Part shown: one piece after another, positions 35,300 to 63,654 of the stretch | How the letters are laid out: each line of letters starts with the position of its first letter | Numbering within the stretch: the first letter of the stretch is position 1 | Source of the DNA: Streptomyces sp. 840.1 | GTDB taxonomy: Bacteria > Actinomycetota > Actinomycetes > Streptomycetales > Streptomycetaceae | Reading direction: 5' to 3' | DNA length: 64,000 bases | Assembly: GCF_003751445.1 (NCBI RefSeq) | Contig: NZ_RJUU01000001.1 | Coordinates: 2,981,001-3,045,000 of the forward strand | Translations under genes and position numbers: made by a program | The notes under the pieces: generated by a model | The model's database searches: none | Told to the model about the DNA's origin: nothing | The model's input: only the letters and a program-made list of their open reading frames with translations

Positions 35300-35318
35300 G
35301 AGCCACCTCCACGACCGT

Positions 35319-35338
35319 AATGGACCAGATGGTCCATT
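35319..35338. promoter_or_regulatory. TetR operator palindrome
   Basis: AATGGACCA (35319-35327), a 2-bp spacer, and TGGTCCATT (35330-35338): a perfect 9-bp inverted repeat just upstream of the TetR start. The size and position are typical of a TetR autoregulatory operator. The half-site TGGACCA-TGGTCCA also resembles operators of TetR_C_6 regulators. Confidence 0.7.
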
Positions 35339-35350
35339 GTAGGTGCGGAC

Positions 35351-35397
35351 ACGGCGGAGGGGGCCGGCCCCGTGACCGGGCCGGCCCCCTCCGCCGT
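35351..35397 (-). terminator. Perfect 20-bp terminator stem after eccC
   Basis: ACGGCGGAGGGGGCCGGCCC (35351-35370) pairs over all 20 bases with the sequence at 35378-35397, leaving a 7-nt loop. It lies 18 bp beyond the eccC stop and separates eccC from the TetR gene on the same strand. Confidence 0.85.
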
Positions 35398-35414
35398 ACT
35401 CGACAGTGCCCCGC

Positions 35415-39380: not shown

Positions 39381-39549
39381 CGGCGAATCAATCCCTCAGT
39401 GCGGCCCGGAGAGTTGCGGGCCGGCACCCCCGTGGCAGCGACCTACCTCCGCGCGCCGACAATCCTACGTGTAGGCCATGGGAGGGACCCCGATAGGGTG
39501 GCGCCCTTGGCCTGGAGCGTGGTGTACAGCGAACGAGGGGATCCATCAG

Positions 39550-44052: not shown

Positions 44053-44336
44053 GTGCCCTCCCCGAGGCCTCGTGGCATCACATGGTGGCCTGAGCCTTTG
44101 GAACTGTAGGTCATCGCTCCCCTTACGAGGGTGGATCTCAGCCAACGGTCAGGAGACCCCTGCGGGACCAGATCCCCTACGCATGCTCTGAGCTGCCATT
44201 TCATAGGAATTCAAGGAGCCACTAGGGGTTGGTGAGGGGTGGTGGGGTGCGAGTGAAGCACATAGCTTCGCGGTTAATCGGGGTGCCCGTTCCGGATGGG
44301 GGAGCGGCGCCCGTTGGCTGGGGAGAGGGTGGGTGC

Positions 44337-45329
44337 ATGGTGCCGGACGTACGGTTCGACGACCTTGTGGTGGTGGTCACCGGCGCTGGGGGCGGCATCG
44401 GACGGGCCATGGCTCTGGCCTTCGCCCGCCGCGGTGCCCGGGTGGTCGTCAACGACCTCGGAGGCCCGCCGACCGGAGGAGACACCCCCAGGGCGGAACT
44501 GGCTCGAACCGTCGTGCGGGAGATCCGTGAAGCGGGGGGCGAGGCGATCGCCTCCACCCACACCGTGGCCACGCCAGAGGGGGGCGAGGCGATCATCCGT
44601 ACGGCGCTCGATGCCTGGGGACGGATCGACGCGCTCATCGCGAACGCCGCCATCCTGCGGGACAGCCTCTTCACCCGGATGCTGCCCGAGGACTTCGACG
44701 ATGTGGTCGCCGTGAACCTGCGCGGTGCCTTCTGTGTCATGCAGCCGGCCTTCCGGGCCATGGCGGAACAGGGCCACGGCAACATCGTCGCGGTGACCTC
44801 CGTGGCCGGACTGTGCGGCTCGTACGGAGGCGCCAACTACTCCGCCTCCAAGGCAGGGCTCGTGGGTCTCACCAAGGCCGTGGCCTGGGAGGGGCAGAAG
44901 TACGGGATCAAGGCCAACCTGCTCGCGCCCGGCGCACTGGACACCCGGCAGTCCGAGGCGTTCAACGCCACCGGCGCCCTGCTGCCGGGCCGGCCGGCCC
45001 CGGACGTCGAACCGGGCGAGGAGATGAAGCTGCTCACCGCCGACCGGGTGGCCCCGATGGCCCTGGTGCTGGCGCATCCGAGCTGCCCGGTGACCGCGGA
45101 GACGTACGGCGCGGCCGGCGGCTGGTTCCACCGGTACTGGACCGCCCACAGCGAGGGGTGGGCCGGGACGAGAGAACCCACCGCCGAGGACATCACCCAG
45201 CACTGGGAAGCGGTCCGGGGGCAGTCGCCGGCGGGCCGTGAGATCGACCAGGAGACCTTCCGGTTCGCCCTGAGCGCGAACCAGCGGGGGCTCGCCCCCC
45301 TGCTCGACCAGCAGCTGACGATCGACTGA
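44337..45329 (+). CDS. SDR-family dehydrogenase (long form)
   Basis: 330 residues from ATG 44337 (GGGGAGAGG upstream). Glycine motif VTGAGGGIGRAMALAF, then VVVNDLGG (Asp after strand 2, favouring NAD+), ANAAIL, Ser in VTSVAG and YSASK. This is the pattern of the (3R)-hydroxyacyl-CoA/17-beta-HSD4-like SDR group, with ~70 extra C-terminal residues. First gene of the P450 operon, so a tailoring oxidoreductase acting on an alcohol or ketone of the product; substrate unknown. It is divergent from the LAL regulator, with ~285 bp between. Confidence 0.88.
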   Translation: MVPDVRFDDLVVVVTGAGGGIGRAMALAFARRGARVVVNDLGGPPTGGDTPRAELARTVVREIREAGGEAIASTHTVATPEGGEAIIRTALDAWGRIDALIANAAILRDSLFTRMLPEDFDDVVAVNLRGAFCVMQPAFRAMAEQGHGNIVAVTSVAGLCGSYGGANYSASKAGLVGLTKAVAWEGQKYGIKANLLAPGALDTRQSEAFNATGALLPGRPAPDVEPGEEMKLLTADRVAPMALVLAHPSCPVTAETYGAAGGWFHRYWTAHSEGWAGTREPTAEDITQHWEAVRGQSPAGREIDQETFRFALSANQRGLAPLLDQQLTID

Positions 45330-45339
45330 AGGACGGGAC

Positions 45340-46536
45340 ATGGACATCAACATCGTGACGCCCGAATCGGTTCTGGACCCCTGGCCGTTGCTCGACCGGC
45401 TGCGGGAGACCGGGCCCGTCGTCCGCAGCGAGGCGATGGGCGGCGTCTGGCTCGTCTCCTCCTACGAGCACTGCCGGGAGGTTCTCCTGGACCCCACGCG
45501 GTTCTCGAACACCGTCTTCGCGTCCACCGACTTCGGACCGTGGTTCGAGGGCACGGACACCATGGTCCACACCGACCCGCCGGACCACACGCGGCTGCGC
45601 TCGATGGTGCAGAAGGCGTTCACGTACCGCTCGGTCCAGCAACTGGAGCCCCGGATCGCGGAGATCGTCCGGGAACTGCTCGACGCGCCGGAGTTCGTGA
45701 CGGGCATGGCGTCCGGCGAACCGGTGGATGTGCTTGGCCAGTTCATCAGCGCCCTGCCCACGACCGTCATCTCCGAACTGCTGGGCATCCCCAGCAGTGA
45801 CCGCAAACTCTTCTACCAGTGGGCGGAGGCCATGATGCGCTGCATCATGGCCGACCCGCGCCTGGTACCGCAGGCACACATCGATGCCGCGGTCACCAGC
45901 GGCCGGGACATGCTCGCCTATCTCCAGGCGGAGATCACCGCCCGGCGCAGGAGCGGTACCACCGACGACCTCATCGGCCGTCTCGTGCAGCAGAACACCG
46001 ACGGGGCACTGTCGGACGACGAGCTCGCCGCGACCTGCGTCACGCTGCTCGTCGCCGGATCCGACACGACGTCGTCCACGACGACCACCATGCTGTCCCT
46101 GCTGGCGAGCCACCCCGAACAGCGCCGGCGCGTGATCGAGGACCGGGTGCTCGTGCCGACGGGCATAGAGGAGACCCTGCGCTTCGAGCCGACGGCCCGG
46201 GTGAACTTCAGAAAGGTGCTCGGAGACGTCGAACTCGGCGGACAACGGCTCGCCGACGGAGACGTCGTCTGGGCACTGGTCATCGCCGCCAACCGGGATC
46301 CGGCCCGCTTCGGAGAGCCGGACCGGTACGACATCACCAGGAACCCCAACCCTCATCTGACGTTCGGGCAGGGGCCGCACCTGTGTCTGGGTGCGCAGCT
46401 CGCCCGGATGGAGATCCGGCACGCCATCAACGCCTTCCTCGACCGCTGGCCGCACTACGAAGTCGCCGAGCGCCGCCCATCTCCCGCCTACGCCGCGCTG
46501 ACCTGGGAGAAGTTCACAGTCGCCGGCGGGCGGTGA
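45340..46536 (+). CDS. Cytochrome P450 (first of three)
   Basis: 398 residues, starting 11 bp after the SDR stop. I-helix AGSDTT, K-helix EETLR (ExxR), and heme loop FGQGPHLCLGAQLAR with the ligand Cys349. A soluble class I bacterial P450 that needs ferredoxin electrons, with a normal length and intact motifs. It presumably hydroxylates the terpenoid scaffold. Confidence 0.95.
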   Translation: MDINIVTPESVLDPWPLLDRLRETGPVVRSEAMGGVWLVSSYEHCREVLLDPTRFSNTVFASTDFGPWFEGTDTMVHTDPPDHTRLRSMVQKAFTYRSVQQLEPRIAEIVRELLDAPEFVTGMASGEPVDVLGQFISALPTTVISELLGIPSSDRKLFYQWAEAMMRCIMADPRLVPQAHIDAAVTSGRDMLAYLQAEITARRRSGTTDDLIGRLVQQNTDGALSDDELAATCVTLLVAGSDTTSSTTTTMLSLLASHPEQRRRVIEDRVLVPTGIEETLRFEPTARVNFRKVLGDVELGGQRLADGDVVWALVIAANRDPARFGEPDRYDITRNPNPHLTFGQGPHLCLGAQLARMEIRHAINAFLDRWPHYEVAERRPSPAYAALTWEKFTVAGGR

Positions 46537-46558
46537 CCCAACCTTGTCCGGAGTGGAA

Positions 46559-47776
46559 ATGACGACCGAGACCCAGCCCATCGAAGTGGATTTCGACCCC
46601 TGGAGTCCCCGCCTCGCCGGGGAGGACCAAGACTTCTGGGCGGTGATGAACGGCCTGCGGGATCGTGGGCCGGTGCTCCGCAGCAGCGCCTACGGCGGGT
46701 TCTGGATCATCACCACCCATGAGGAAGTGCTCGCCGCCAACAAGGACTGGGAGACGTTCTCCTCCGCCCAGGGCGTGTCCCTGCCGCACAATCCCGGCGC
46801 CCCGCTGCTGGCCCCCATCGAGGTCGACCCGCCGGAGCACCGCGACTGGCGACGTCTCCTCAACCCGCTCATGTCGCCGCCGACGGTGGCCCGTCACGAG
46901 CCCGCCATGCGGCGCATCGCATCGGACCTGATGGACGAGTTCGTGGCAGCGGGCCAGTGTGACCTGGCCGTCGACTTCGCCTGGAAGTTCGTTCCGGCGG
47001 CCCTCTTCCAGCTGCTCCTCGGAGTCGCCCCGCAGGAGGTTCCGCACACCCGGGAGCTCGCACACCGCATCGTGTCGCACGGCACTACGCAGGAGGAGCA
47101 GAACCAGGCGTTCGCCGACCTGAGCGACTGGTCGCTGCGGTACCTGGACTGGCGCGAGACGCAGCCGGAGCGCGGCGACGTCGTCGACGCGCTGCTGCGG
47201 GGGGAGATGCGAGGCCGTCCTCTCACCCGGGAGGAGATGGTGCGCGCGATGATCCTGCTGATCGTCGCGGGAATGGACACCACATCCAACAGCATCGGTG
47301 ACCTGGCGCTGCACCTGATCGACGACCCCGCCCTGACCGAGCTGTTCCGCGACAACGAGCACTCCGTGGAACAGATCGTCGAGGAAATGCTGCGCCACGG
47401 TTCGGTCTCCTTCGGGCTGTCCAGGGTGACCACCAGGGAGACGGTGGTCGCCGGCTGCCGGATACCGCAGGGCGAGCGCGTGTTCCTGCTGTGGGCGGGC
47501 GCCAACCGGGACCGCCGCGTCTTCCCCGACCCGGAGAGCTTCGACCCGTCCCGCGCCCCCAACCCTCATCTGGCGTTCGGGGCGGGACCGCACCGTTGCA
47601 TGGGGGCCCATTTCGCGCGGCTCATGCTCAAGGTGGCGGCGACCGAGATCCACGCACGGATGCCCGGTCTTCGACTGCGTCCGGGCGCGCGGATCGAGCA
47701 GCCCCCGGGCCTCGTCCGCAGTACCCGTTCCCTCCCCGTGCTCTTCGAGCCGACGGCCGTGCGGGAGGCGCGGTGA
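46559..47776 (+). CDS. Cytochrome P450 (second of three)
   Basis: 405 residues from ATG 46559 with GGAG five bases upstream; a TTG at 46544 is less likely. I-helix AGMDTTSN, ExxR in EEMLRHG, heme loop FGAGPHRCMGAHFAR (Cys347). By eye it is only moderately similar to the first P450, so the three are not simple recent duplicates. Its stop overlaps the next start in GTGA. Confidence 0.95.
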   Translation: MTTETQPIEVDFDPWSPRLAGEDQDFWAVMNGLRDRGPVLRSSAYGGFWIITTHEEVLAANKDWETFSSAQGVSLPHNPGAPLLAPIEVDPPEHRDWRRLLNPLMSPPTVARHEPAMRRIASDLMDEFVAAGQCDLAVDFAWKFVPAALFQLLLGVAPQEVPHTRELAHRIVSHGTTQEEQNQAFADLSDWSLRYLDWRETQPERGDVVDALLRGEMRGRPLTREEMVRAMILLIVAGMDTTSNSIGDLALHLIDDPALTELFRDNEHSVEQIVEEMLRHGSVSFGLSRVTTRETVVAGCRIPQGERVFLLWAGANRDRRVFPDPESFDPSRAPNPHLAFGAGPHRCMGAHFARLMLKVAATEIHARMPGLRLRPGARIEQPPGLVRSTRSLPVLFEPTAVREAR

Positions 47777-48999
47777 AGCCCTCGGCACAGGCCCCGGCCC
47801 TGCCACCCATCGCACCCGACGACCCCGACTTCTACCGGGAACCGGAGCGCGCGTTCGGGTGGCTGCAGGAGCACAGCCCGGTCCATCCCTGGGTGTCGGC
47901 CAAAGGCAGGCCGATGTACGTGGTCTCCCGATGGGCAGACGTGCGCCAGGTGTCGGCATCCCCCGCACAGTTCAGCAGCGGACGCGGGCACATGATCGAC
48001 CAGCCCCGCGCCGGCCACGGCGACCGGCCGGCCGACAGCAGACAGGACACACCCCTGCTGCACAACATCGATCCACCGGAGCACGACAAACACCGCAAGC
48101 TGATCAGTCGCAGCCTCACCGCGCGCAGGGTGGTCGGGCTCGAACCGGCCGTACGCAAAGTGATCACGCGGGTTCTCGGCGCTGTGCCCGGCAACGAGGA
48201 GATCGATGCCGTGAGCGCCTTCGCGGCGGCCGTACCGCTACGGGTGATCGCCGAACTGCTGGGTGTGCCGTTCGCCGACCTGCCGCTGCTGCGCGGCTGG
48301 TCCGACGAGCTCGCCGCCACCTCGGACGCCGAGGGCGCGCGACCACGACAGGAGGTGCTGTCCGAATTCTTCGACTACCTGGACATCCTCATCGCCGAAC
48401 GGCGCCGCTGTCCCCGGGACGACCTGATCACCTCCCTGGCGTTCGCCGAGGTCGAGGGTGAGAAGCTCTCCCACCCGGAGCTCCTCATGCACATATGGAC
48501 GGCGCTCGTGGCGGGCAACGAGACCGCGCGCAACGCCATCTCCGGTGGCATCGAGGCGTTCACCGGACACCCCGGCGAGTACCGGCGGCTGACCCAGGAG
48601 CCGGGAATCGCCGAGACGGCCACCGAGGAGATACTGCGCTGGACCACACCCGCGCGATACGGCGGCCGCACCGTGGTGCGTCCGGTGCGACTGGCTGGAC
48701 GACAACTGCACGCCGGCGAATACGTGTTGATGCTCTACAGCGCGGGCAACCGCGACAGCCGGGTGTTCCCCGACCCCTACCGCTTCGACATCGGACGTGA
48801 CAGCAGCCGGCTGCACCTCTCGTTCGGCCACGCCACCCACTTCTGCGTCGGTTCCCAGCTCGCCCGGCTCGAACTGCGGATCCTGCTGGAGGAACTCGCC
48901 GTCCGCTACCGCGGCATCTCGGCGGCCGGACCCGTGGAGCGCACCCGCAGCCCCATGCTCAACGGCTACGAACGCGTCCCGGTCGTGCTTCATGTCTGA
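47773..48999 (+). CDS. Cytochrome P450 (third of three)
   Basis: 408 residues from GTG 47773, in a 4-bp overlap with the second P450. I-helix AGNETARN, where Glu replaces the usual acidic Asp and is followed by Thr; ExxR in EEILRW; heme loop FGHATHFCVGSQLAR (Cys358). The AGNET variant is seen in CYP125/CYP142-like and some terpenoid P450s. The stop is overlapped by the MFS gene by 8 bp. Confidence 0.95.
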   Translation: MKPSAQAPALPPIAPDDPDFYREPERAFGWLQEHSPVHPWVSAKGRPMYVVSRWADVRQVSASPAQFSSGRGHMIDQPRAGHGDRPADSRQDTPLLHNIDPPEHDKHRKLISRSLTARRVVGLEPAVRKVITRVLGAVPGNEEIDAVSAFAAAVPLRVIAELLGVPFADLPLLRGWSDELAATSDAEGARPRQEVLSEFFDYLDILIAERRRCPRDDLITSLAFAEVEGEKLSHPELLMHIWTALVAGNETARNAISGGIEAFTGHPGEYRRLTQEPGIAETATEEILRWTTPARYGGRTVVRPVRLAGRQLHAGEYVLMLYSAGNRDSRVFPDPYRFDIGRDSSRLHLSFGHATHFCVGSQLARLELRILLEELAVRYRGISAAGPVERTRSPMLNGYERVPVVLHV

Positions 49000-50365
49000 C
49001 CCGGTGACGGCCCGGCGACCCGGGGACCGGCTTCCCCGGCGGTTGATGACCGTGGCGTGCACGACGCAGTTCGTCGTGGTGCTGGACGTCTCCGTCGTCC
49101 ATGTGGCACTGCCTTCGGTCCGTCAAGACCTCGGGTTCTCCACCGAGGGGCTCCAATGGGTCGTCACCGCCTACATGCTGGCGTTCGGCGGGTCGCTGCT
49201 GCTGGGCGGCAGGCTCGCGGATCTGATCGGCCAACAGCGCGCGCTGCTGGGTGGAATGGCCCTCTTCGCCACCGCGAGTCTCGTCGCCGGCCTGGCCTGG
49301 GGGCCGGGGGTGCTGATCTCCGCCCGCGCCGTTCAGGGCATCGGGGCCGCGGTGCTGTCCCCCGTCTCGCTGACCCTGCTCACCAGCGAGTTCCACGACG
49401 CGAATCTCAGGGCGAGGGCACTCGCGGCCTGGGGCGGGGTGGCCGCCGCGGCGGGCGCGGCCGGTGTCTTCGTGGGCGGACTCGTCACGCAGTACCTGAA
49501 CTGGCGCTGGACGATGCTCATCAACGTGCCGATCGCGCTTCTCGTCCTCGTGCTGGCCCGGGGCACTGTGGCCGGCCGGACACGGGGCGCGGCGTGGCGC
49601 ACCCCGGACATCGTGGGGGCCCTGGCTGTGACGGCGGGCCTGGTCGCCTGTGTCTACGGCGTCGAGCCGGGACGCCGACCGGTGCTCGGTGCGGGGCTGG
49701 CGCTGCTCGCCTTCTTCGCGGTGTGGGAGGCCCGGGGGGCCCGTGAGCCGCTGCTGCCGATCCCCGTGCTCCGCAGCCGGTCCGTTTCCGTCGCGAACGT
49801 GGGGATGTTCCTGACCGCTGCGGCCACCTTCTCGATGTGGTTCTTCCTCTCGCTCCATCTCCAGAACCAGCGCGGATTCAGCCCGCTCGAAACCGGCGCG
49901 GCCTTCCTCCCGCAGTACCTGGCCATCGTGGCGGGAGCGCAGCTGGCCGCCCGCCTGCTGCCGGCGTACGGAGCCAAGCGGATGCTGGCGATCGCGGCGC
50001 TGCTCCAGTCGGCCGGCTTCGCCTGGCTGTCCGCTGCGGGTCCGCACAGCCCGTTCCCCGTACACATCCTGCTGCCCGGTCTCCTCGTCACCCTGGCCCT
50101 CGGGCTGGCGAGCACCCCTCTGACCCTGGCGGCGACCAGTGGGGTGGCGGCGGACCGGGCCGGCACCGCCTCCGGGCTCGTCAACACCTCACGCCATCTG
50201 GGCGGTGCCATGGGCGTCGCGGCGCTGGCCGCCGTCGCCGGGCAGCGGCCCGGGGGAGTGGACCGGATCTTCCGGACCGACGCTCTGCTGCTGGCCGCCG
50301 TCGCAGTGCTCGCGCTGCTCCTGCCCGAGCCATCCGAGAGAAAGGACTCCAGTGAACCAGCCTGA
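48992..50365 (+). CDS. MFS exporter, DHA2/EmrB type
   Basis: 457 residues from ATG 48992, overlapping the third P450. About 14 hydrophobic segments. Motif A GGRLADLIGQQRALL, motif D/B region DVSVVHVALPSVRQDLG, and motif C-like GGVAAAAGAAGVFVGG. It is a proton-driven drug efflux carrier and probably exports the cluster product and gives self-protection. Confidence 0.9.
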   Translation: MSDPVTARRPGDRLPRRLMTVACTTQFVVVLDVSVVHVALPSVRQDLGFSTEGLQWVVTAYMLAFGGSLLLGGRLADLIGQQRALLGGMALFATASLVAGLAWGPGVLISARAVQGIGAAVLSPVSLTLLTSEFHDANLRARALAAWGGVAAAAGAAGVFVGGLVTQYLNWRWTMLINVPIALLVLVLARGTVAGRTRGAAWRTPDIVGALAVTAGLVACVYGVEPGRRPVLGAGLALLAFFAVWEARGAREPLLPIPVLRSRSVSVANVGMFLTAAATFSMWFFLSLHLQNQRGFSPLETGAAFLPQYLAIVAGAQLAARLLPAYGAKRMLAIAALLQSAGFAWLSAAGPHSPFPVHILLPGLLVTLALGLASTPLTLAATSGVAADRAGTASGLVNTSRHLGGAMGVAALAAVAGQRPGGVDRIFRTDALLLAAVAVLALLLPEPSERKDSSEPA

Positions 50366-51185
50366 TGCCCTCGAACGATTCCGGCTGACCGGACGTACCG
50401 CTCTGATCACCGGGGCGGGCCGGAACATCGGTGCTGCCATCGCGTCGGGCTACGCTCAGGCCGGCGCCGACCTCCTCCTCGTCGACCGTGACAAGGAAGC
50501 GGTGGAAGACGTCGCCGAGTCCATCCGCGCCTCGACCGGACGCGTCGTGGCCACCGTGCACCGCGATGTCGGCGCCGCCGACATCGTCGACCAGGTGGCC
50601 GGCGCGGCAGAGGCGCACTTCGACGCGGTGGACATCCTGGTCAACGGCGCGCTGGCCTTCGGGGCCACCGGTACGCACAGCGCCGATGTGTCGACGGCGC
50701 AGTGGCAGGACGCGCTCGACGTCAATGTGCTGGCCCCGGCGAGACTCTCGTCGCTGTTCGTCAACACGTTGGTGAAGGGCGGTCCGGGCACCATCATCAA
50801 CCTCCTCTCGGGAGCCGGGTTCGCACCGGTTCCGCTGGCAGCGCCGTACAGCATGTCGAAGGCGGCCCTGTGGATGCTCACCCGGTGTTTCGCCAAGGAC
50901 TGCGCCCCGCGCATCAGGGTCAACGGGCTGTGCCCCGGGACCATTTCACCGGACGGCGTCGCGCGCACGGAGGAGCTCCGCAAGGCGACCCCCATGGGCC
51001 GGGGCGGACGTGCGGACGAGGTTGTCGGCGCGGCGATCTACCTGGCGTCGGATGCGTCCGGCTACTCGACCGGAGACGTTGTCTATGTGAACGGAGGATT
51101 CACCGGACTCACTGGCTACAGCGACGAGATCATCGGCTCGGACCCCGTGGGCCGTCCGCGTACCGGGAGGCGTTCGGCGGGATGA
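50352..51185 (+). CDS. SDR-family oxidoreductase (second in cluster)
   Basis: 277 residues from GTG 50352 (AAAGGA upstream), overlapping the MFS gene by 14 bp. Glycine motif ITGAGRNIGAAIASGY, Asp after strand 2 (LLVDRD, NAD+ type), NGALAFG in place of the usual NNAG, Ser in LLSGAG and YSMSK, then CPGTISPDG and a C-terminal NGGFTG. Complete and probably active on a scaffold alcohol or ketone. Confidence 0.9.
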   Translation: MNQPDALERFRLTGRTALITGAGRNIGAAIASGYAQAGADLLLVDRDKEAVEDVAESIRASTGRVVATVHRDVGAADIVDQVAGAAEAHFDAVDILVNGALAFGATGTHSADVSTAQWQDALDVNVLAPARLSSLFVNTLVKGGPGTIINLLSGAGFAPVPLAAPYSMSKAALWMLTRCFAKDCAPRIRVNGLCPGTISPDGVARTEELRKATPMGRGGRADEVVGAAIYLASDASGYSTGDVVYVNGGFTGLTGYSDEIIGSDPVGRPRTGRRSAG

Positions 51186-52414
51186 CGACAGTCGCGCAAG
51201 AGACGATCGGGGAACGGATCGAACTGCTCAGGCGCCGACGAGGACTCTCCCGGCAGACCCTTGCCTCGTTGGTCGGACACAGCTCCGAGTGGCTGCGGCA
51301 GGTGGAGCGCAAGGGGCGGGGGGTGGACCGGCTGTCGACCCTCCTGCGGCTCGCCGAGGTCCTTCAAGTGAAGGACGTCGCGGCCTTCATGGGGGTCGCA
51401 GTGCCGGGCCGGCGGGTCGACGAGCCGACGTTCGGAGCGGCGCCGGACATACGGGCGGCGCTCCTCGGCCACCGCGCGGCGGTCCGCGCGGGTGGCCACC
51501 GGCCGGGCGACATCGACCGGCTGGCCTCGGAGGTGACCGAGGCCTGGACGTGGTGGCGGCAGTCCGCGAGACGCTGGTCCGCCGTGCGAACGAGCCTGCC
51601 GGGACTGCTGGAACGGGTCTGCGGACCGCACATCGACCGTGCGGCCCCCGAAGCACTCCGACTGAGCGCCGAAACACATCGGCTGGCCGCCGCCTACCTG
51701 CACAGTTCGGGGGACCTGTCCCTGGCCCTGCTGGCGACGGACCGGGCGCTGGCCGAAGCCAGGCTGGCCTCGGCGCCCCTGACCGAGGCGGCATGCCTTC
51801 AGGGCTTCGGCGATGTACTGCTGCGTCTTCAGGCGCCGGCCGAGGCCTGCGAGATGTGCGTCACGGCGGCCGACGCCCTGGAGCTGTACGACGGTTCCCC
51901 CGCCTGCGAGACCACCGCGGCCCGCGTACGGCTGTACCTCACCGCGGCCGAGGCGGCGGCGTTCGCCCGCGACCACCACGGCGCCGAGCGGTTGCTCGAC
52001 CGGGCCGCCATGCTGGTCCAGGACGCACAGGACATGACGTCGGTGCCCAGTCCCGTGCCCCCGGGGACGACGGCGCCCGCCCGGCCGGTGGACGTGGCGA
52101 TCTACCGTGTCCGGGTCGAGGTCGTGCTCGGCCGTTCGGGCAAGGCGCTGCGGCTGGCCGAACACGTCGGCAGTGTGGACACGCTGGACCGTGAGGGCCG
52201 GGCCCGGTTCTATCTGACCCTGGCACGGGCCCACCTGCATCAGCGTAATCAGCCGGGCGCGGTGCTGGCACTCATGCAGGCGGACCGGGCCTCGCCCGAG
52301 GAGGTCCGGTTCAACGTCTACGCGCAGCACCTTCTCAAGCAGGCGATCGGCCAGGACAGCGTCACCGTTCGCCACGACCTGTACCGTCTGGCCGAACGGG
52401 CGGGTCTGCTGTGA
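51182..52414 (+). CDS. XRE-type HTH regulator with TPR-like domain
   Basis: 410 residues, ATG overlapping the SDR stop (ATGA). Residues about 8-65 are an XRE HTH (IELLRRRRGLSRQTLASLVGHSSEWLRQVERKGR). The rest is helical repeats typical of ligand- or peptide-sensing TPR regulators (RLAAAYLHSSGDLSLALLATDRAL, ARFYLTLARAHLHQRNQPGAVLALMQADRA). Last gene of the P450 operon, so likely feedback control within the cluster. Its 3-prime end overlaps the convergent TetR gene by 53 bp. Confidence 0.88.
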   Translation: MTTVAQETIGERIELLRRRRGLSRQTLASLVGHSSEWLRQVERKGRGVDRLSTLLRLAEVLQVKDVAAFMGVAVPGRRVDEPTFGAAPDIRAALLGHRAAVRAGGHRPGDIDRLASEVTEAWTWWRQSARRWSAVRTSLPGLLERVCGPHIDRAAPEALRLSAETHRLAAAYLHSSGDLSLALLATDRALAEARLASAPLTEAACLQGFGDVLLRLQAPAEACEMCVTAADALELYDGSPACETTAARVRLYLTAAEAAAFARDHHGAERLLDRAAMLVQDAQDMTSVPSPVPPGTTAPARPVDVAIYRVRVEVVLGRSGKALRLAEHVGSVDTLDREGRARFYLTLARAHLHQRNQPGAVLALMQADRASPEEVRFNVYAQHLLKQAIGQDSVTVRHDLYRLAERAGLL

Positions 52415-53051
52415 CGCTGTTCGCGCAGCCGTGCCGTAGACCGTCGCACACCACACTCAGTACCCGTTGTGGCACGGCCGCGCCACCGTCGTTGCGGTTG
52501 CGGGCCAGTATCAGCCCGGTGATCAGGGCCATCAGGTCGGCGACACTGATGTCGTCGCGGACGGCCCCCGCCTGCTGCGTGTTGAAGAGCAGCTTGCCGA
52601 TGCCCCGCCGAAGGCGCCGCCTCGCCCGGGGCACGGCGGCGGAAGCGTCGACGTCCTCCCCGGCGAGGGCGTCGACCATGTCCCTGCGGACGCTGCCTTC
52701 CTCGATGGTCAGGGAGAGGAACTGGAAGAACGCCTCAGCGGGGTCGTCCGAGTCCGCCAACTTCTCCGCATGGTCGACGAGTTGCTCCAGGCGGCCCAGC
52801 ACGATCGTTTCGAACAGCGCTTCCTTGCTCGTGAAGTGCCGGTAGATGGTGCCGGAACCCACACCCGCGCGCCGGGCGATCTCGTCCAGGGGCACGCCGA
52901 GACCCTCCGAGGCGAACGCCTCCTGGGCGGCCTCCAGCACCCGGGCACGGTTGCGCCGGGCGTCCGAACGCAGTGCCGGCCCGAAGCGGGACGTTGGTTC
53001 CGCTTCTTCTTCCTCGGGGTGCAGATCTTGCGCGCTAATGTCCATGTTCAT
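52362..53051 (-). CDS. TetR-family repressor
   Basis: 229 residues. After a charged 25-residue lead, the HTH reads RNRARVLEAAQEAFASEGLGVPLDEIARRAGVGSGTIYRHFTSKEALFE. The C-terminal domain is SBP/TetR_C-like with FFQFLSLTIEEG and DLMALITGLILARN. Divergent from the aldo-keto reductase gene, whose promoter it probably blocks. ATG 53045 is an alternative start. The coding ends overlap tail to tail with the XRE regulator. Confidence 0.9.
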   Translation of the reverse strand: MNMDISAQDLHPEEEEAEPTSRFGPALRSDARRNRARVLEAAQEAFASEGLGVPLDEIARRAGVGSGTIYRHFTSKEALFETIVLGRLEQLVDHAEKLADSDDPAEAFFQFLSLTIEEGSVRRDMVDALAGEDVDASAAVPRARRRLRRGIGKLLFNTQQAGAVRDDISVADLMALITGLILARNRNDGGAAVPQRVLSVVCDGLRHGCANSVTADPPVRPDGTGRGER

Positions 53052-53075
53052 GCGTGTTCTCCGTGGTGATTGCCG

Positions 53076-54203
<1,128 letters not shown>

Positions 54204-54241
54204 CAGTCATTGAACGAAAAGAAAGAAGAAACGGGGAAATC

Positions 54242-55183
54242 ATGTTCCGCAGGCTGGTCATATCTTTCGTGGCGATGGCGACAGCCACGCTCGGAGTCAC
54301 CGGGACGTCGAGTGCGGCCGCTCGGACGCCCGTGCCGGCAGGACCCACCACACTTCAACTGCCGGACGGCTTCCACCCGGACGGCATCGCCATCTGCCCG
54401 CAGGAGCACCGTGCGTACTTCGGTTCGCTGAACGACGGTGCTGTCTACCGGGTCGACCTGTCCACCGGCCAGGGTGGCTTACTCACCCCGGGGACGGGCG
54501 GAATGGCCACCGGCATGAAGCTCGGCGAGGGCCACAAGCTGTATGTCGCGGGCGGGTCGGTGGGCGACGGCCGGATCGTGGACAGCGGGAGCGGGAAAGT
54601 GCTGGCCGACTACAAGTTGCCGGCCACCACCGGCTTCATCAACGATGTCGTCCTGACCAAGGACGCCGCATGGTTCACGGACTCGTTCAACCCCGTCCTG
54701 TACAAACTCCCGCTGCACGCGGACGGCTCGCTGCCCGCGCAGAGTGAGCTGGTCACCCTGCCGCTCACCGGCGATCTCCAGTACCTGGACGGGTTCAACG
54801 TGAGCGGCATCGCGCCCACACCCGACGGAAAAGGCCTGCTGATCGCTCAGATCAACACCGGGAAGCTCTTCGAGGTGAACACGGCCAGCGGAGCGACTCA
54901 CACCGTGGACACCGGGTCCGAGACACTGACCAATCCCGACGGAATGCTTCTGGTCGGCCACACTCTCCATGTGGCCGAGAACCGCATGAACGAGGTCGCG
55001 TCGCTGAAGATCGACGATGCCGGACTGCACGGCGAAGTCGTCCGGCGCACCACGGACCCTCGCTTCGACATCCCGACCCGCATCGCGGCGGACGGAGATC
55101 TCCTCTACCTTCCGAACGCGCGCACGACGACTACGCCCACACCGACCACGCCCTACACGGCGGTGGCGATTTTGAAGCCGTGA
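54242..55183 (+). CDS. Secreted SMP-30/YncE-like beta-propeller with TTA codon
   Basis: 313 residues from ATG 54242. Signal peptide ends near TSSAAART. A six-bladed propeller follows (LPDGFHPDGIAICPQEHRAYFGSLNDGAVYRVDL, GFINDVVLTKDAAWFTDSF, VSGIAPTPDGKGLLIAQINTGKLFEVN). This is the SMP-30/gluconolactonase or strictosidine-synthase-like fold. One in-frame TTA (54479-54481, codon 80) ties its translation to bldA. Extracellular role unknown; it might bind or process the exported product. A strong terminator follows. Confidence 0.8.
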   Translation: MFRRLVISFVAMATATLGVTGTSSAAARTPVPAGPTTLQLPDGFHPDGIAICPQEHRAYFGSLNDGAVYRVDLSTGQGGLLTPGTGGMATGMKLGEGHKLYVAGGSVGDGRIVDSGSGKVLADYKLPATTGFINDVVLTKDAAWFTDSFNPVLYKLPLHADGSLPAQSELVTLPLTGDLQYLDGFNVSGIAPTPDGKGLLIAQINTGKLFEVNTASGATHTVDTGSETLTNPDGMLLVGHTLHVAENRMNEVASLKIDDAGLHGEVVRRTTDPRFDIPTRIAADGDLLYLPNARTTTTPTPTTPYTAVAILKP

Positions 55184-55257
55184 ACTGTGGCTCCGGGCAG
55201 GCCGGCCCGACGGGTGCCCGGTTCCGGAGCGCGACACACATAACTCCCCTCCACGGC

Positions 55258-55303
55258 AGCGCGTTATCCCGAAGCTCTTCGGGATAACGCGCTGTTTTCT
55301 TTT
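55258..55303 (+). terminator. Rho-independent terminator
   Basis: AGCGCGTTATCCCGAAG (55258-55274) pairs with CTTCGGGATAACGCGCT (55277-55293), followed by GTTTTCTTTT. The classic stem plus T-tract separates the AKR operon from the MEP/terpenoid operon. Confidence 0.93.
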
Positions 55304-55420
55304 CCATGGTCGAGCCAATTCTGCGGCCGAAGGAAAGGGGCAAATGAATTTGTCATTCCGGACGCGCTGATCGGCTTTCCTGGAGACACAGCCCCTCGGT
55401 GGAAACGGGAAGGTTCATCA

Positions 55421-56704
55421 GTGAACGCCTACATACAGACAGAAACTCTGGCTGTGCGGTCCGTCGACCTGTCCCTCGCATCCGGTGAAGTGATGGTGGC
55501 CGATGGAATCAAGGGGGAGGACCCGCAGGACTTCCCCCGGTCCGGAATCTCTCTGCTTCTGCGAGGAGAGCTGCGGCGTCGGGGCTTCCACGTGCGCACC
55601 GGCCCGCTGTGCGCCACGGGTACAGCAACTCCCGGTCATCCCGTACTTCACCTGGCCCGATGCACCCCGCCGGGGGCGGGGAAGCAGGTGCTCGGCGTGG
55701 TCACCGCCCCGGGTGACGAGACGGCGGCCGCTGCGGTGCGGGACGTGTTCGGACAACTGGAGGCCGCGTTCCGGCCGCGCACCGTGCTGCTCGCCTCACC
55801 CAGGTCGTTCTGCGCGGGTGTCGACCGTGCCATCGAGATAGTGGAACGGGTACTGGCCGACCGCGGCAGCCCCGTCTACGTCCGCAAGCAGATCGTGCAC
55901 AACATCCACGTCGTACGGAGCCTGGAGCGACGGGGCGCCGTGTTCGTCGACGACCTCGACGAGGTGCCCGCCGGCGCGACCCTCGTGTTCTCCGCCCACG
56001 GTGTCTCCCCGGAGGTCCGCGAACACGCGGACGCACGCCGCCTCGACGTCATCGACGCGACCTGCCCCTTGGTCACGAAGGTCCACGCGGAGGCACGGCG
56101 GTTCGCCCAGCACGGCGACACCGTGGTCTTCATCGGGCACGCGGGCCACGAGGAGACGGAGGGAACCCTCGGAGAGGCACCGGACAGCATGGTGCTGGTG
56201 GAGAGCGTGGCCGACGTGGCGGCCCTGAGCGTCCCCGATCCGGACCGGGTCTCCTATCTGACCCAGACGACCCTGGCCGTCGACGAGACGGCCGGAATCG
56301 TGTCCGCACTGACGGAACGCTTTCCGGCACTACGGGCCCCCCGCTCGGAAGACATCTGCTACGCGACGACCAACCGGCAGGAAGCGCTGCGCGCCGTCGC
56401 GGCCGCCTCGGACCTGGTGCTCGTCGTGGGGTCGGTCAACTCGTCCAACTCACAACGCCTGGTGGAACTGAGCACTCGCCAGGGCACCACGGCCCAGCTG
56501 ATCGACGACGCTTCGGAGATCGATCCCGCCCACCTCCGGGAGGCCGCAGTCGTAGGCCTCACCGCAGGGGCGTCGGCGCCGCCCGAACTGGTGGAAGAAG
56601 TGGTCGACGTGCTGGCCGGCCTCGGAGCAGTGACGGTGAAGGAGCGAGAAGTGACCCGAGAGAACGTGCATTTCGCACTGCCCAGGGCGGTGGGCGCCCG
56701 ATGA
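55421..56704 (+). CDS. ispH: 4-hydroxy-3-methylbut-2-enyl diphosphate reductase, N-terminally extended
   Basis: 427 residues from GTG 55421, about 110-120 longer at the N-terminus than usual IspH. The catalytic core starts near [17 protein letters not shown]; the 4Fe-4S ligands are Cys131, Cys215 (DATCPLV) and Cys313 ([10 protein letters not shown]), with His in VHNIHVV and SAHGVSP. It makes IPP and DMAPP from HMBPP, the last MEP step. The extension (two extra Cys, no recognised domain) may be a family trait of cluster-borne copies. Its stop overlaps dxs by 4 bp. It is probably a second copy besides a housekeeping ispH. Confidence 0.93.
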
Positions 56705-58536
56705 GTGTGAAGACCCCCGAGCGGCGTTCGACCGCCCTGCTGGACACCATCGATTCCCCCGACGACCTGCGTGCCCTTCCCGCGGACCGGCTGGAGGAAC
56801 TGGCCGAGGAGATCCGTACCTTCCTGATCGACACCGTCACCGGCACGGGCGGGCATCTCGGTCCCAATCTCGGCGTGGTGGAACTGACCCTCGCCCTGCA
56901 CCGGGTCTTCGAATCGCCCCGCGACGTCATGCTTTTCGACACCGGACATCAGACGTACATCCACAAGCTGCTCACCGGGCGCCGGTCGGCCTTCGACAGG
57001 CTGCGGCAGAAGGACGGGATCTCCGGCTACCCCTCCCGGCGGGAGTCCGTCCACGACATCATCGAGAACTCCCACGCCTCCACGGCGCTGTCGTACGCGG
57101 ACGGGCTCGCCAAGGCGCACGCGCTGGCCGGTACGCCGGAGCGGAGGGTCGTCGCCGTGGTCGGTGACGGTTCGCTCACCGGGGGAATGTCCTGGGAGGC
57201 GCTGAACAACATCGGCGCGGCCCCGGAGCGCCCGGTGACGGTCGTGCTCAACGACAACGGGCGGTCCTACGACCCGACCGTCGGTCTCTTCGGCCGAGTA
57301 CCCGCCCACTCGGCAGGGCACACCAGCGGTGACCCGGGCGCCGACGCGGTGGCCGCCCTCTTCGTGTCCATCGGCCTCGACTACATCGGCCCGGTGGACG
57401 GCCACGACATCGAGGCGGTCGAAGCCGCTCTGCGCAAGGCGGATTCGGCACACAGGCCGACGGTCGTGCACTGCCGCACGGTCAAGGGGAAAGGCTATCC
57501 CCCGGCAGAGGCGGACGAGGCCGACCGCCTGCACGCCGTCGGAGTGGTCGACCGCGACACAGGCAGGCCGCACTACCGCACCGCACCCACCTGGACCACG
57601 GTCTTCGGCGACGAGATGAAGGACATCGGGGCCGAGCGCCAGGACATCGTGTGTCTCACCGCCGCCATGCTGCGGCCCACGGGTCTGCTGCCGTTCTCCG
57701 ACGCGCACCCGGACCGGGTCTTCGACGTGGGCCTCGCCGAGCAGCACGCCGTCACCAGTGCGGCCGGGCTCGCGACCTCGGGCCTGCACCCGGTGGTGGC
57801 CGTCTACGCGACCTTCCTCAACCGTGCCTTCGACCAAGTCCTCATGGACGTGGCCCTGCACGGCCTCCCCGTCACCTTCGTCCTCGACCGTGCCGGTGTC
57901 ACGGGCCCGGACGGAGCCAGCCACCACGGCCTGTGGGACTCATCGCTCCTCTCCCTCGTCCCCGGACTGCGCCTGGCCGCACCCCGCGATCCCGCACGGC
58001 TGCGGGAACTGCTGCGTGAGGCGGTGGCCGTCTCGGACGGACCGACGGCCATCCGCTTTCCGAAGGCGTCGGCGGGGCCGGACATCCCGTCCCTGGAACG
58101 GGTCGGTGCGACCGACGTACTGCACCGAGCAACGGGCAGTGAAGTCCTCGTCGTCGCCGCGGGGCCGCTCGCCCTCGACGCCCTGGAAGCCGCCCGCACA
58201 CTGGGCGAACACGGCGTCGGCGTGACGGTGGCCGACCCGCGCTGGGTGTCACCGCTGGACCCGTCTCTCGTACGGATGGCACTGCGTCACCGGCTGGTCG
58301 TCACCGTCGAGGACAACATCGAAGTCGCCGGCCTGGGCAGCAGGGTGGCCCACGCACTGTCGGACATCCCCGGCGCACCGCGCAACTGCACACTCGCACT
58401 GCCCGCCGAGTTCGTCGCCCACGATTCCCGCGGCGCCATCCTGCGCAGCAAGGGACTGGACGGCTCCGCCATCGTGACCGCGGTACTCGACCGTCTCGGC
58501 GGCCACGGCACTCTCGACGAGGGGACAGACCGATGA
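56701..58536 (+). CDS. dxs: 1-deoxy-D-xylulose-5-phosphate synthase
   Basis: 611 residues, ATGA overlap with ispH. Thiamine-diphosphate motif [16 protein letters not shown], the catalytic His region in [13 protein letters not shown], and C-terminal transketolase domain [17 protein letters not shown] and [14 protein letters not shown]. Full length. First committed step of the MEP pathway (pyruvate plus glyceraldehyde 3-phosphate); carried in the cluster it raises isoprenoid precursor flux. Downstream gene ispG overlaps by 4 bp. Confidence 0.96.
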
Positions 58537-59684
58537 CCGGGACAGTCGCACTCCCGATTCCCACAGTGACACCCCGACTCCGCGCGCGGCGCGCCACCCG
58601 GCAGATCGTGGTCGGTCACGAGGAGCGAGCCGTGCCGGTGGGCGGCGGCGCACCCGTGTCCATCCAGTCCATGACGACCACGCTCACCGCCGACGTCAAC
58701 GCGACGCTCCAACAGATCGCCGAGCTCACCGCGAGCGGCTGCCAGATCGTGAGGGTCGCCGTCCCGAGCCAGGACGACGCCGACGCGCTTCCCGCCATAG
58801 CCGCGAAATCGCCCATCCCCGTGATCGCCGACATCCACTTCCAGCCGAAATACGTCTTCGCCGCGATCGACGCCGGCTGTGCCGCGGTGCGTGTGAATCC
58901 CGGCAACATCCGCCGGTTCGACGACCGGGTCAAGGAGATCGCGCGAGCCGCGTCCGACGCCGCCGTGCCGATCAGGATCGGCGTCAACGCGGGCTCCCTG
59001 GACGATCGTCTGCTCCGGAAGTACGGCAAGGCCACCCCCGAGGCCCTCGTCGAGTCCGCGCTCTGGGAGTGCTCCCTCTTCGAGGAGCACGGTTTTCAGG
59101 ACATCAAGATCTCCGTCAAGCACCACGACCCAGTGGTCATGATCAATGCGTATCGGCTGCTCTCCGAGAAGTGCGACTACCCACTGCACCTGGGCGTGAC
59201 GGAAGCCGGCCCGGCCTTCCAGGGCACCGTCAAGTCGGCAGTGGCCTTCGGTGCGCTTCTGGCGGAGGGCATCGGCGACACCGTGCGGGTCTCGCTCTCG
59301 GCGCCGCCGGTGGAGGAGGTCAAGGTCGCCACGGCGATCCTCCAGTCACTCGGATTGAAGGAACGCCGGCTGGAGATCGTCTCCTGCCCCTCCTGCGGCC
59401 GTGCCCAGGTGGACGTCTACCGTCTCGCCGAACAGGTGACCGCCGCGCTGGACGGCTTCCCGTACCCGCTGCGGGTCGCGGTCATGGGCTGCGTCGTCAA
59501 CGGTCCGGGCGAGGCGCGTGAGGCGGACATCGGTGTCGCGTCGGGTAACGGGAAGGGCCAGATCTTCGTGCGCGGAGAAGTGATCAAGACCGTGCCGGAG
59601 TCCCGCATCGTGGAGACCTTGGTGGAAGAGGCCATGAAGCTGGCCGAAGAGCTGCAGCTGACCGGTGAGGAGAAGTCGTCATGA
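58533..59684 (+). CDS. ispG: 4-hydroxy-3-methylbut-2-en-1-yl diphosphate synthase
   Basis: 383 residues, ATGA overlap with dxs. TIM-barrel start [17 protein letters not shown] and [10 protein letters not shown]. The 4Fe-4S cluster ligands lie in SCPSCGRAQ and [10 protein letters not shown]. Converts MEcPP to HMBPP, the substrate of IspH. Coordinates with dxs and ispH; dxr and ispD-F are absent here, so the middle of the pathway comes from chromosomal copies. Confidence 0.96.
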
Positions 59685-60760
59685 CAACAGCCACCGCCGT
59701 AGCGGGACCCCTCGACCTCGCCGCAGTCCGGCAGGCCGTCGACAGGACTCTGACCGAATTCCTGTCCGCCAAGGCGGAGTCCGCCGACTCCGCCGCGCTG
59801 CCCGAACTCATCGATGTGCTGAGCAGGTTCGTCACCGCCGGGGGCAAGCGACTGCGCCCCCTGCTCTGCGTGTGCGGCTGGTACGCGGCCGGTGGCGGTC
59901 CGGAAGCCGGTGTGGCGCTGCGCGCGGCCGCCTCGCTCGAACTCTTCCACGCCTTCGCTCTCATCCATGACGATGTGATGGACGGCTCCGACACCCGCCG
60001 GGGGCATCCCAGCGCTCACCGGGCCCTGGAGGCCACACGGGCAGGCGGGGACTGCGCGTCCACGGAGTGGTTCGGTGTGAGCGGCGCGATCCTCCTGGGT
60101 GATCTGGCGCTGGTGTGGTCGGACGAGATCCTCACCACCGCAGCCATGTCGGCGCAGCAGCACCAGGCGCTCCGCCCGGTCCTCGACGCGATGCGCAGCG
60201 AGGTGATGCTTGGTCAGTACCTGGATCTCCTCGGCACCGGCCAGGTGACCGGTGACCTCAAGGAGGCCATGGACGTCGTGCGGTACAAGACCGCCAAGTA
60301 CACCATCGAGCGGCCGCTCCACGTGGGCGCCGTGCTGGCCGGCGGGCGGACGGCCGACCTGGAGGCGTGCAGCGCGTACGCCATTCCGGTCGGTGAGGCA
60401 TTCCAGCTCCGGGACGACCTGCTGGGTGTCTTCGGTGATCCGCTGATCACCGGCAAGTCGGATCTCGACGATCTGCGCGAAGGCAAGCGCACGCCTCTGG
60501 TGGCCCTGGCCGTCCAGCGGGCCGACGAACGCCAGCTGTCCGTGCTGAAGGGCCTGCTGGGCAGGCAGGACCTCGATGCGGAGGGCGCCGCTTCCGTGCG
60601 GCGAGTACTGGAGGAGACCGGAGCCCGGCGGCGGGTCGAGGAGATGATCGCGAGCCGCTACGAGCAGGCCATGCGGGCGCTGGGCAGCGTGGGATTCCCG
60701 ACCGCGGTCACGGCGGCACTCCAGGAGATCGCGCGAGCGGCGACGGCGAGGTCCTCGTGA
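59681..60760 (+). CDS. Polyprenyl diphosphate synthase, GGPP-synthase type
   Basis: 359 residues, ATGA overlap with ispG. First Asp-rich motif [13 protein letters not shown] (Asp97, Asp98, Asp101); second motif [25 protein letters not shown] and [10 protein letters not shown] fit the long-chain IPPS family. Streptomyces enzymes of this layout usually make geranylgeranyl diphosphate. A C20 product is likely, but FPP or longer chains cannot be excluded from sequence alone. It feeds the UbiA-family enzyme encoded next. Confidence 0.93.
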
Positions 60761-61674
60761 GCGCCCCCCTCGGTCCGGCACGTCCGGCTCCGCTGTCCCG
60801 GCCGCTGGCGTCCGCGTGCCGCGCCGTCGTCAACGAGATACAGATCAGTTGCCGTTTCATCAGCAACGACGTGTGGACCACAGTGCTGCCGGCCACCGCG
60901 TTCGTCCTTGCGGCAGGACGCCACAGCGGACACTCCGGTGGTCGGATCGCCGTGGATTTCCTGTGTGGGGCGCTGTACTTCTGGCTCTACATCTACGGGT
61001 TCACCCTCACCAACCAGCTGTACGGGGTGGAGGAGGACCGCGTCAACAAACCCTTCCGGCCGCTGGTCACCGGCCGGTCCAGCTACCGCGGCGCACAACG
61101 CCGGGCCTTAGTAGTGCTGTTGCTCTTTCCGGTTGTCGCCTGGTGGTTCGGAGTCCTGTTCTGGGCCCTGGCATGGGAAGCGACGTATCTGCTGACCAAT
61201 GTGGCGCGCTGGGAACGGCATTGGTTCCTGAAGAACCTCTCGATGGGTATCGGCGTGACGGTCCAGCTCGCTGCGGCCTGGTCGATCGTCACTCCGCTCA
61301 CCCCGCTCGCCTGGCGATGGGTGATGACACTCGCCGTGTCCATCTGGCTGCTCATCCCGCTGCAGGACCTGCGTGACGTGAAGGGCGATCTGGTCAACGA
61401 CCGCAAGACCTTCCCGATCGCTCTCGGCGAGCGGTTCACCCGCGTCTATCTGGCCACCGGCTTCGCACTGCTGCCAGTGGTCGTGCACCTGCTGCTGGTG
61501 GCTCCCGGCCGGTCGTCATGGGGGCTGCCGCTGGACGCGGTCCTCGCTGCCATCAGCTGGCTCGTGGCCGTGCGGGTCGTCACCCGACGGGCACCGGAGG
61601 AGGACCACGTGACCTACCGGAGGTTCGAGCAGTGGTACACGCTCGCGCTGATCACCGCGATCATCGTGCTGTGA
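60757..61674 (+). CDS. UbiA-family membrane prenyltransferase or terpene cyclase, with TTA codon
   Basis: 305 residues, ATGA overlap with the GGPP synthase gene. About eight to nine membrane helices. First motif region N86-Q-L-Y-G90-V-E-E-D94-R-V-N-K-P (canonical NDxxDxxxD is altered: Gln87 and Gly90 replace two Asp). Second motif D204-L-R-D207-V-K-G-D211 is intact. The N-x3-G-x-EED-RxNKP form is, as I recall, a divergent UbiA group that includes membrane terpene cyclases. One in-frame TTA (61108-61110, codon 118). With no aromatic-acceptor genes nearby, cyclisation of the prenyl diphosphate is a serious option. Confidence 0.8.
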   Translation: MSAPLGPARPAPLSRPLASACRAVVNEIQISCRFISNDVWTTVLPATAFVLAAGRHSGHSGGRIAVDFLCGALYFWLYIYGFTLTNQLYGVEEDRVNKPFRPLVTGRSSYRGAQRRALVVLLLFPVVAWWFGVLFWALAWEATYLLTNVARWERHWFLKNLSMGIGVTVQLAAAWSIVTPLTPLAWRWVMTLAVSIWLLIPLQDLRDVKGDLVNDRKTFPIALGERFTRVYLATGFALLPVVVHLLLVAPGRSSWGLPLDAVLAAISWLVAVRVVTRRAPEEDHVTYRRFEQWYTLALITAIIVL

Positions 61675-61813
61675 CGGCGGTGACCGTCAAGGGCGCCCGC
61701 CGGAGTCCCGCCGGGCCGGCGCAATACGGCGATGCCGGCCGCTGACCGGCTGGCTGCTCACACCCGGCGGGCCCCCGCCGCTTCATCGTCCCGTCCCATT
61801 CATGGAGATACTC

Positions 61814-62131
61814 ATGACGTATGTCATCGCGCAGCCCTGCGCCGACGTGAAGGACAAGTCGTGCATAGAGGAATGCCCCGTCGACTGCATCTACGAGGGC
61901 GCCCGGTCGCTGTACATCCATCCGGACGAGTGCGTTGACTGCGGTGCCTGTGAGCCGGTCTGCCCGGTCGAGGCCATCTTCTACGAGGACGACGTCCCGG
62001 AGGAGTGGAAGGACTACTCCGGAGCGAATGTGGAATTCTTCCAGGACCTCGGTTCACCGGGCGGCGCCGCCGTGCTCGGACTGATCGACCGCGACCCCCC
62101 GTTGGTGGTGCAGCTTCCCGCCAGGACGTGA
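61814..62131 (+). CDS. 7Fe ferredoxin (FdxA type)
   Basis: 105 residues from ATG 61814 (GGAG six bases upstream; ATG 61802 is an alternative). Cysteines PC...SCIEECPVDC and CVDCGACEPVCPV fit the 3Fe-4S plus 4Fe-4S pattern of actinobacterial FdxA. It can supply electrons to the three P450s, and IspG and IspH also need reduced ferredoxin or flavodoxin. No ferredoxin reductase gene is in the window, so a chromosomal reductase must be used. It is the last gene of the precursor operon, after a 139-bp gap. Confidence 0.93.
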   Translation: MTYVIAQPCADVKDKSCIEECPVDCIYEGARSLYIHPDECVDCGACEPVCPVEAIFYEDDVPEEWKDYSGANVEFFQDLGSPGGAAVLGLIDRDPPLVVQLPART

Positions 62132-63343: not shown

Positions 63344-63654
63344 CCGGCGATCATCGCGCCGGTGTCCGGGCAGCGCAACGAGATATCGGCGGCACGCCGG
63401 GGCCGCCCTCGCTGAGGGCGGCCGACCGTTTCGCACAGGCCGGGACTTCGTGAGGGTTGGCTTTCAACTCCCCTGGTGAGTAGGTCACTCACTTGGGTGA
63501 CGTGATGCTTGGGACGACTCCGTGCACTATCTCCGGACATATGCTCCTGGCAATAACGACCTTGTGCTCGGGGGCACGTGGGCACGCACATCACCACAGG
63601 TCACCGCGTATCAGTACAGATCGATACAGATCGCCGCACTCGCAGGAGTCCCGC
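63344..63654. other. 311-bp intergenic region
   Basis: Divergent region between the APH-like gene and the partial gene at 63655. It contains the 6-bp inverted repeat GTGAGT-N5-ACTCAC (63476-63492) and a short direct repeat of TACAGATCG near 63615-63635. No coding sequence or clear promoter was found. Confidence 0.5.

Follow-up and report, generated by a model that had tools for sequence, protein, structure and literature searches.

A Streptomyces terpenoid gene cluster with a UbiA-type membrane protein as its probable sole cyclase

In this analysis, we describe a gene cluster of Streptomyces sp. 840.1 that lies within a 64,000-nucleotide stretch of DNA (the window; bases 2,981,001-3,045,000 of contig C1, in a genome of 8.84 Mb) and that probably directs the synthesis of a terpenoid with a UbiA-type membrane protein as its only cyclase. 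The sequence supports the gene identities, the coupling of the UbiA gene into an operon, the presence of motifs typical of UbiA-type terpene synthases, and the finding of no other cyclase nearby. A first-pass annotation of this DNA had proposed the UbiA protein as the core membrane cyclase, a proposal now supported by two diagnostic motifs, by relatives encoded beside prenyl synthases, methylerythritol phosphate (MEP) pathway genes or cytochromes P450, and by the lack of a neighboring cyclase.

The UbiA gene (60757-61674; identified by Pfam, motifs, a structural model and fold matches) is the last of five genes in a forward-strand operon (55421-61674), whose order, ispH-dxs-ispG-prenyl synthase-UbiA, and tight overlap were as first annotated: four 4-base stop/start overlaps (ATGA, ATGA, ATGA and GTGA) join the reading frames. 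The operon opens with ispH (hydroxymethylbutenyl diphosphate (HMBPP) reductase; 55421-56704; NCBIfam, Pfam and homologues), dxs (deoxyxylulose phosphate synthase; 56701-58536; NCBIfam TIGR00204) and ispG (HMBPP synthase; 58533-59684; NCBIfam), the last being one of two ispG copies in the genome. IspH, at 427 residues, has the long actinobacterial form; its N-terminus might seem unusual in length, but homologues of about 420 residues are common in actinobacteria. The fourth gene (59681-60760) encodes a trans-polyprenyl diphosphate synthase, one of five prenyl synthases in the genome, recognized by Pfam, solved relatives and DDVMD and DDLLG motifs. Its closest solved enzymes are 3lk5, named a geranylgeranyl pyrophosphate synthase, followed by 8f8f, named a farnesyl diphosphate synthase, and the residues FALIH stand directly before DDVMD. 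By the rules for the residue five before this motif, the predicted product is most likely geranylgeranyl diphosphate (GGPP), with farnesyl diphosphate (FPP) possible. As previously annotated, the operon is followed on the same strand by a ferredoxin of the FdxA type (61802-62131; NCBIfam NF045480), one of three above the cut-off in the genome, which plausibly marks the right edge of the cluster. No ferredoxin match was found within 10 kb of UbiA in 78 other UbiA loci (tblastn, E <= 1e-6). Both IspG and IspH contain iron-sulphur clusters and depend on reduced ferredoxin or flavodoxin, so the window ferredoxin could be the electron donor to these enzymes or possibly to the P450s.

The UbiA protein belongs to the UbiA family of membrane proteins and fits both motifs of UbiA-type terpene synthases, motif I (NXXX(G/A)XXXD) as NQLYGVEED (61012-61038, forward strand) and motif II (QDXXDXXXD) as QDLRDVKGD (61363-61389, forward strand), each by motif reading. 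Both motifs have been published for fungal enzymes, and mutation of Asp residues in one of them, Tps1A, abolished the product (PMC9835599). The prenyltransferase form of motif I (NDXXDXXXD, or NxxxDxxxD) is absent from the window protein. The other UbiA matches in this genome, one of which covers only part of its protein, all carry NxxxDxxxD (5 of 5) and never NxxxGxxxD (0 of 5). In a homology search that scored the 8000 candidates sharing most words, both terpene synthase motifs occur in 72 of the 78 listed proteins, the window UbiA counted. The predicted structure (predicted local distance difference test, pLDDT, 95.7; predicted template modeling score, pTM, 0.91) has the UbiA fold, with the digeranylgeranylglyceryl phosphate synthase structures 7bpu/6m31 and the archaeal UbiA structures 4tq3/4od5 as nearest matches; this common fold cannot separate a cyclase from a transferase.

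These motifs bear directly on an alternative that we consider improbable, namely that the UbiA protein is an acceptor prenyltransferase that joins the polyprenyl chain to a head group, aromatic or lipid, whose synthesis takes place elsewhere, so that the cluster would make a meroterpenoid. Prenyltransferases are numerous among UbiA-family proteins, the 12 NCBIfam matches of the window protein are mostly to prenyltransferase-type models (none above cut-off), and the bacterial zig cluster combines a UbiA-like prenyltransferase with a polyprenyl synthase, P450s and a ferredoxin to yield a meroterpenoid (PMC13307353). However, the window protein has lost the prenyltransferase motif I (NQxxG instead of NDxxD) while possessing the terpene synthase pair, and the comparison with the five other UbiA proteins of the genome weakens an aromatic prenyltransferase assignment in particular. 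Moreover, in agreement with the first-pass annotation, no gene for making an aromatic or other acceptor was recognized among the 41 open reading frames (ORFs) scanned with Pfam or NCBIfam, out of 53 predicted for the window.

The earlier statement that the window lacks a class I or class II terpene synthase also stands within the scope of the searches. The class I model PF19086 has five matches in the genome and none in the window, the sole match on the same contig lying about 2.7 Mb away, and a six-frame scan of the window plus 20 kb to its left and 18 kb to its right, confined to class I motifs, revealed no class I motif pair. PF13249, the model for squalene-hopene-type (class II) cyclases, has a single genome match, on contig C3 and not near the window. 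This cyclase match lies about 0.4 kb from one for a prenyl synthase, and the site looks like a hopanoid locus; with its own prenyl synthase there, the window operon is a separate entity, and a hopanoid origin for that operon was rejected. On the right flank no terpene gene was recognized, the scan beyond the window covering three proteins.

The same searches address a second alternative, in which the UbiA protein would act as a second cyclase on a bicyclic diphosphate (e.g., copalyl diphosphate) delivered by a class II synthase. Precedent comes from the UbiA-type ent-atiserene synthase of platencin biosynthesis, as described in PMC10301674, and PMC9814783 gives a likely UbiA cyclase in 14% of 342 biosynthetic gene clusters of the actinobacterial ent-copalyl diphosphate synthase group; squalene-hopene-type cyclases are, furthermore, found near UbiA in a neighboring clade (see below). 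Nevertheless, a class II partner sought genome-wide was not found near the window, the only candidate being the hopanoid-like enzyme on contig C3, and a squalene-hopene-type match was likewise not found within 10 kb of UbiA in the relative from Amycolatopsis arida. We therefore regard this arrangement as highly improbable.

Left of the UbiA operon lies a tightly packed forward-strand operon with the order short-chain dehydrogenase (SDR), P450 a, P450 b, P450 c, major facilitator superfamily (MFS) exporter, SDR and XRE regulator, with overlapping genes from P450 b through to the XRE gene. ORF prediction with Pfam and NCBIfam found the gene content first described here to be present and intact. 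The three P450s (a, 45340-46536, Pfam, with CYP107B1 among its best solved relatives; b, 46544-47776, Pfam and homologues, with an alternative start possible at ATG 46559; c, 47773-48999, Pfam, overlapping b by 4 bases) each have readable heme-Cys, ExxR and I-helix motifs. Around them are the first SDR (44337-45329; Pfam adh_short; the ORF opens at 44229, with ATG at 44337), the MFS exporter (48992-50365; Pfam MFS_1), which overlaps P450 c, the second SDR (50352-51185; Pfam) and an XRE-type (HTH_31) regulator (51182-52414; Pfam), the starts of the last three being read from the sequence. Between the operons stand a TetR regulator with an SbtR-like C-terminal domain on the opposite strand (52362-53051; Pfam), an aldo/keto reductase (AKR; 53205-54203, forward; Pfam PF00248) and two features missing from the first description, namely a gene for a secreted protein (54242-55183, forward; signal peptide by eye, no Pfam family at E 0.001) and a strong terminator. 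The latter is an intrinsic-terminator-like hairpin (55255-55296, forward; 19 bp stem and T-rich tail) that stands between the AKR unit and the ispH operon. Terminator-like sites number three in the region against a mean of 5.7 in shuffles, so their number carries no meaning; the stem length at 55255-55296, the longest of them, does, and the core of this stem occurs only once in the window. Three regulators had been counted besides the large ATP-binding LuxR-type (LAL) regulator, but only two, the XRE and TetR genes, lie within 44337-62131. The LAL gene itself (41191-44145, reverse strand; AAA_16 and GerE domains by Pfam, ORF prediction) sits just outside, divergent from the left operon, and is a probable pathway regulator; another TetR gene (34691-35299) is also outside.

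Whether these P450s act on the UbiA product is the point at which a third alternative, compatible with a cyclase function, has to be weighed: the left-hand unit could be a P450/SDR/MFS cluster with no relation to its right-hand neighbor, an operon for a terpene hydrocarbon, leaving the UbiA product unoxidized by these P450s. The hairpin and the separate regulators fit such a division, as does the occurrence of P450 b relatives in strains for which no UbiA hit is named. Arguing for linkage instead, two strains, NPDC056061 and NPDC021749, have homologues both of P450 b (87-89% identical) and of UbiA (86-89%), and the contigs bearing the two genes match in length (163,964 and 8,353,080 bases), the larger of which is chromosome-sized and thus says little on linkage. 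At E <= 1e-90, with the best four candidates per genome scored, P450 b was found in one of 392 Streptomyces genomes, this one, and P450-like genes also stand near UbiA at other loci. Separate neighbors are therefore rather unlikely in our judgment, and the P450 operon likely belongs with the UbiA operon.

A match to the UbiA protein at E <= 1e-20 occurs in 13 of 295 Streptomyces genomes, in 19 of 392 in a larger overlapping draw that includes this genome, in 6 of 100 relatives, and, in a class-wide draw of 394, in this genome alone. At the protein level, the nearest relatives are 86-99% identical. A single-protein UbiA scan of genome contigs returned no relative, and an alignment-based scan yielded 72 loci in Actinomycetota, Cyanobacteriota, Myxococcota, Chloroflexota, Bacteroidota and a few other groups. 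A plasmid protein search produced two records, the better being 28.7% identical over 91% of the query. One homologue (P0046) carries the source label '(R)-axinyssene synthase' and is 71% identical over 308 columns to the protein of an Archangium violaceum locus (L068); that label may point to diterpene products within the family. The word axinyssene itself was found in one paper, which cites the sponge compound.

Together, the 72 scan loci, 10 loci specified by handle and the window gave a set of 83, in which a UbiA frame was found in 79 and a protein of at least 270 residues in 72. Among these 72 full-length proteins, both terpene synthase motifs are present in 53, and NxxxDxxxD occurs in none. 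Neighbors were sought by tblastn with the window proteins and the squalene-hopene cyclase of this genome, some loci having short flanks, so distant neighbors will have been missed. On this basis a prenyl synthase lies within 1 kb of UbiA at 25 of 72 loci and within 10 kb at 27, a P450-like match within 10 kb at 19 (the window itself scores zero because its P450s are more than 11 kb away), and a squalene-hopene-type cyclase nearby at 13. At least one MEP gene near UbiA is confined to four of the 72, namely the window, A. arida L051, G284 and G266.

In a midpoint-rooted tree of 84 UbiA proteins, with long branches flagged, the window protein groups with eight others, including that of A. arida (support 100/98), forming an actinobacterial clade in which we recognized no characterized member. 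It is part of a larger group of 28 rows (95/92) whose internal branching is not resolved and which also includes a 13-member Streptomyces clade (100/100; L052-L055, L057, L058, L062, L063, L067, L084, G036, G048 and G730). Within 10 kb of UbiA, each of its 13 loci encodes both a prenyl synthase and a cyclase of the squalene-hopene type, the cyclases carrying a DxDD(T/S) motif in 13 of 13 loci, with Pfam confirmation for two (L067 and L053). This neighboring clade perhaps operates a two-cyclase relay. Its members, such as L053 and L067, resemble the window in their UbiA proteins (48-54% identical, same motifs) and adjoining prenyl synthase, but differ in the second, class II-type cyclase, in the ABC transporter genes of L067, where genes for an ABC ATPase and a probable permease come after UbiA, and in that no MEP match was found within 10 kb. 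The A. arida locus has a UbiA protein 63% identical, dxs, prenyl synthase and ispH upstream and P450s on both sides; unlike the window, it has a class I terpene synthase (L051:2670-3809, PF19086) and an AMP-binding enzyme, and an ispG match was not found. Mapped onto the tree, the MEP-linked loci require four changes for four rows, no better than shuffled labels, so the MEP association is scattered. We tentatively entertain a broader scenario, possible though on balance doubtful: the window clade would comprise uncharacterized actinobacterial membrane cyclases making an undescribed diterpene skeleton from a self-contained precursor operon, with P450 tailoring in place of the relay of the neighboring branch, where UbiA would begin by ionizing GGPP, leaving the rest of the polyene to be protonated by the class II enzyme.

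For the window cluster, a pathway can be proposed in which IspH, Dxs and IspG would enlarge the supply of C5 units and the prenyl synthase would assemble a linear diphosphate, most likely GGPP. The UbiA protein would bind this diphosphate through Mg2+, itself held by motif II together with the acidic residues left in motif I, and would ionize and cyclize it inside the membrane with no acceptor for the prenyl group. Up to three P450s, along with the SDR and AKR enzymes, would then oxidize the resulting hydrocarbon, and the MFS protein would export the product. Within this scheme, we infer the cyclization itself, GGPP as substrate, the role of the P450 operon and the oxidized nature of the product.

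Several observations weigh against this interpretation. The cyclase role is read from sequence, the motif rule derives from fungal enzymes, and the chain length of the prenyl synthase product is a guess from one motif and the names of relatives. Nor is the family uniform, since among its 72 full-length members 19 lack one motif or both. Furthermore, two of the three other MEP-linked loci have a class I synthase: A. arida L051, by Pfam, and G284 (L035+L036), by motif only, where a class I-like ORF (DDQFD, NDLFSLAKE) lies about 2.7 kb past UbiA, near a dxs-ispH-UbiA group. UbiA is thus not the sole cyclase there, which weakens any rule of UbiA acting alone in MEP-linked clusters; as the class I search in relative loci used motifs only and missed the A. 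arida gene that Pfam found, such genes may also lie undetected at other loci. Finally, the two operons are kept apart by the hairpin and by the genes for the TetR regulator, the AKR and the secreted protein, and P450 b has relatives (57-60% identical) in S. tsukubensis and in three strains of Nocardia, none of which appears by name in the list of UbiA hits, so the P450 operon may have evolved separately.

Membrane cyclases of this kind have precedents. StlTC, the lydicene synthase of Streptomyces lydicus, is a Streptomyces UbiA-type protein like that of the window and is reported as a diterpene cyclase in PMC10301674, with no mention of an accompanying MEP cluster. The platencin enzyme in the same source is likewise a bacterial UbiA-type diterpene synthase, as predicted for the window protein, but acts on ent-copalyl diphosphate from a class II synthase. 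Among fungal enzymes, Fma-TC, EriG and Tps1A/Tps2A share the membrane UbiA family, and the tps1 cluster includes a P450; all differ in their fungal origin, and Fma-TC and Tps1A/Tps2A also in using FPP (PMC9835599). With StlTC and the platencin enzyme already known, bacterial UbiA-type diterpene cyclases are not new as a kind. The window protein adds a probable member to that kind, in a branch without a recognized characterized member, and it comes with a supply operon of its own, a search of the surroundings having turned up no further cyclase; we recognized no description of the window gene order in the literature searched, and do not claim its absence from print. The search for terpenoid clusters in genomes is often based on models for soluble synthases, and UbiA-related diterpene synthases are not hit by PF19086 (PMC10055836). 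A cluster that combines MEP genes, a prenyl synthase and P450s with nothing but a UbiA protein as candidate cyclase is a clear, testable example of what escapes such models, and the UbiA tree points to where undescribed cyclases, including pairs of UbiA and squalene-hopene-type enzymes, could be sought.

The genes flanking the cluster are of other kinds. To the right are, among others, a phosphotransferase gene of the aminoglycoside phosphotransferase (APH) type, a DUF5753/HTH regulator and an SDR. The APH-type gene (62435-63436, reverse strand) has a counterpart near UbiA in one locus of the 13-member clade (L063:12480-13427; 46% identical), which may be coincidence, the two loci being otherwise different. 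Directly to the left (22830-41019) are type VII secretion genes for EccB, two WXG100 proteins, a subtilase, an FtsK/SpoIIIE-type protein and EccD. Further left, an ORF at 11281-14577, which contains two stretches of radical SAM type and whose C-terminus is of the CofH/MqnC type, probably encodes FbiC, of F420 biosynthesis.

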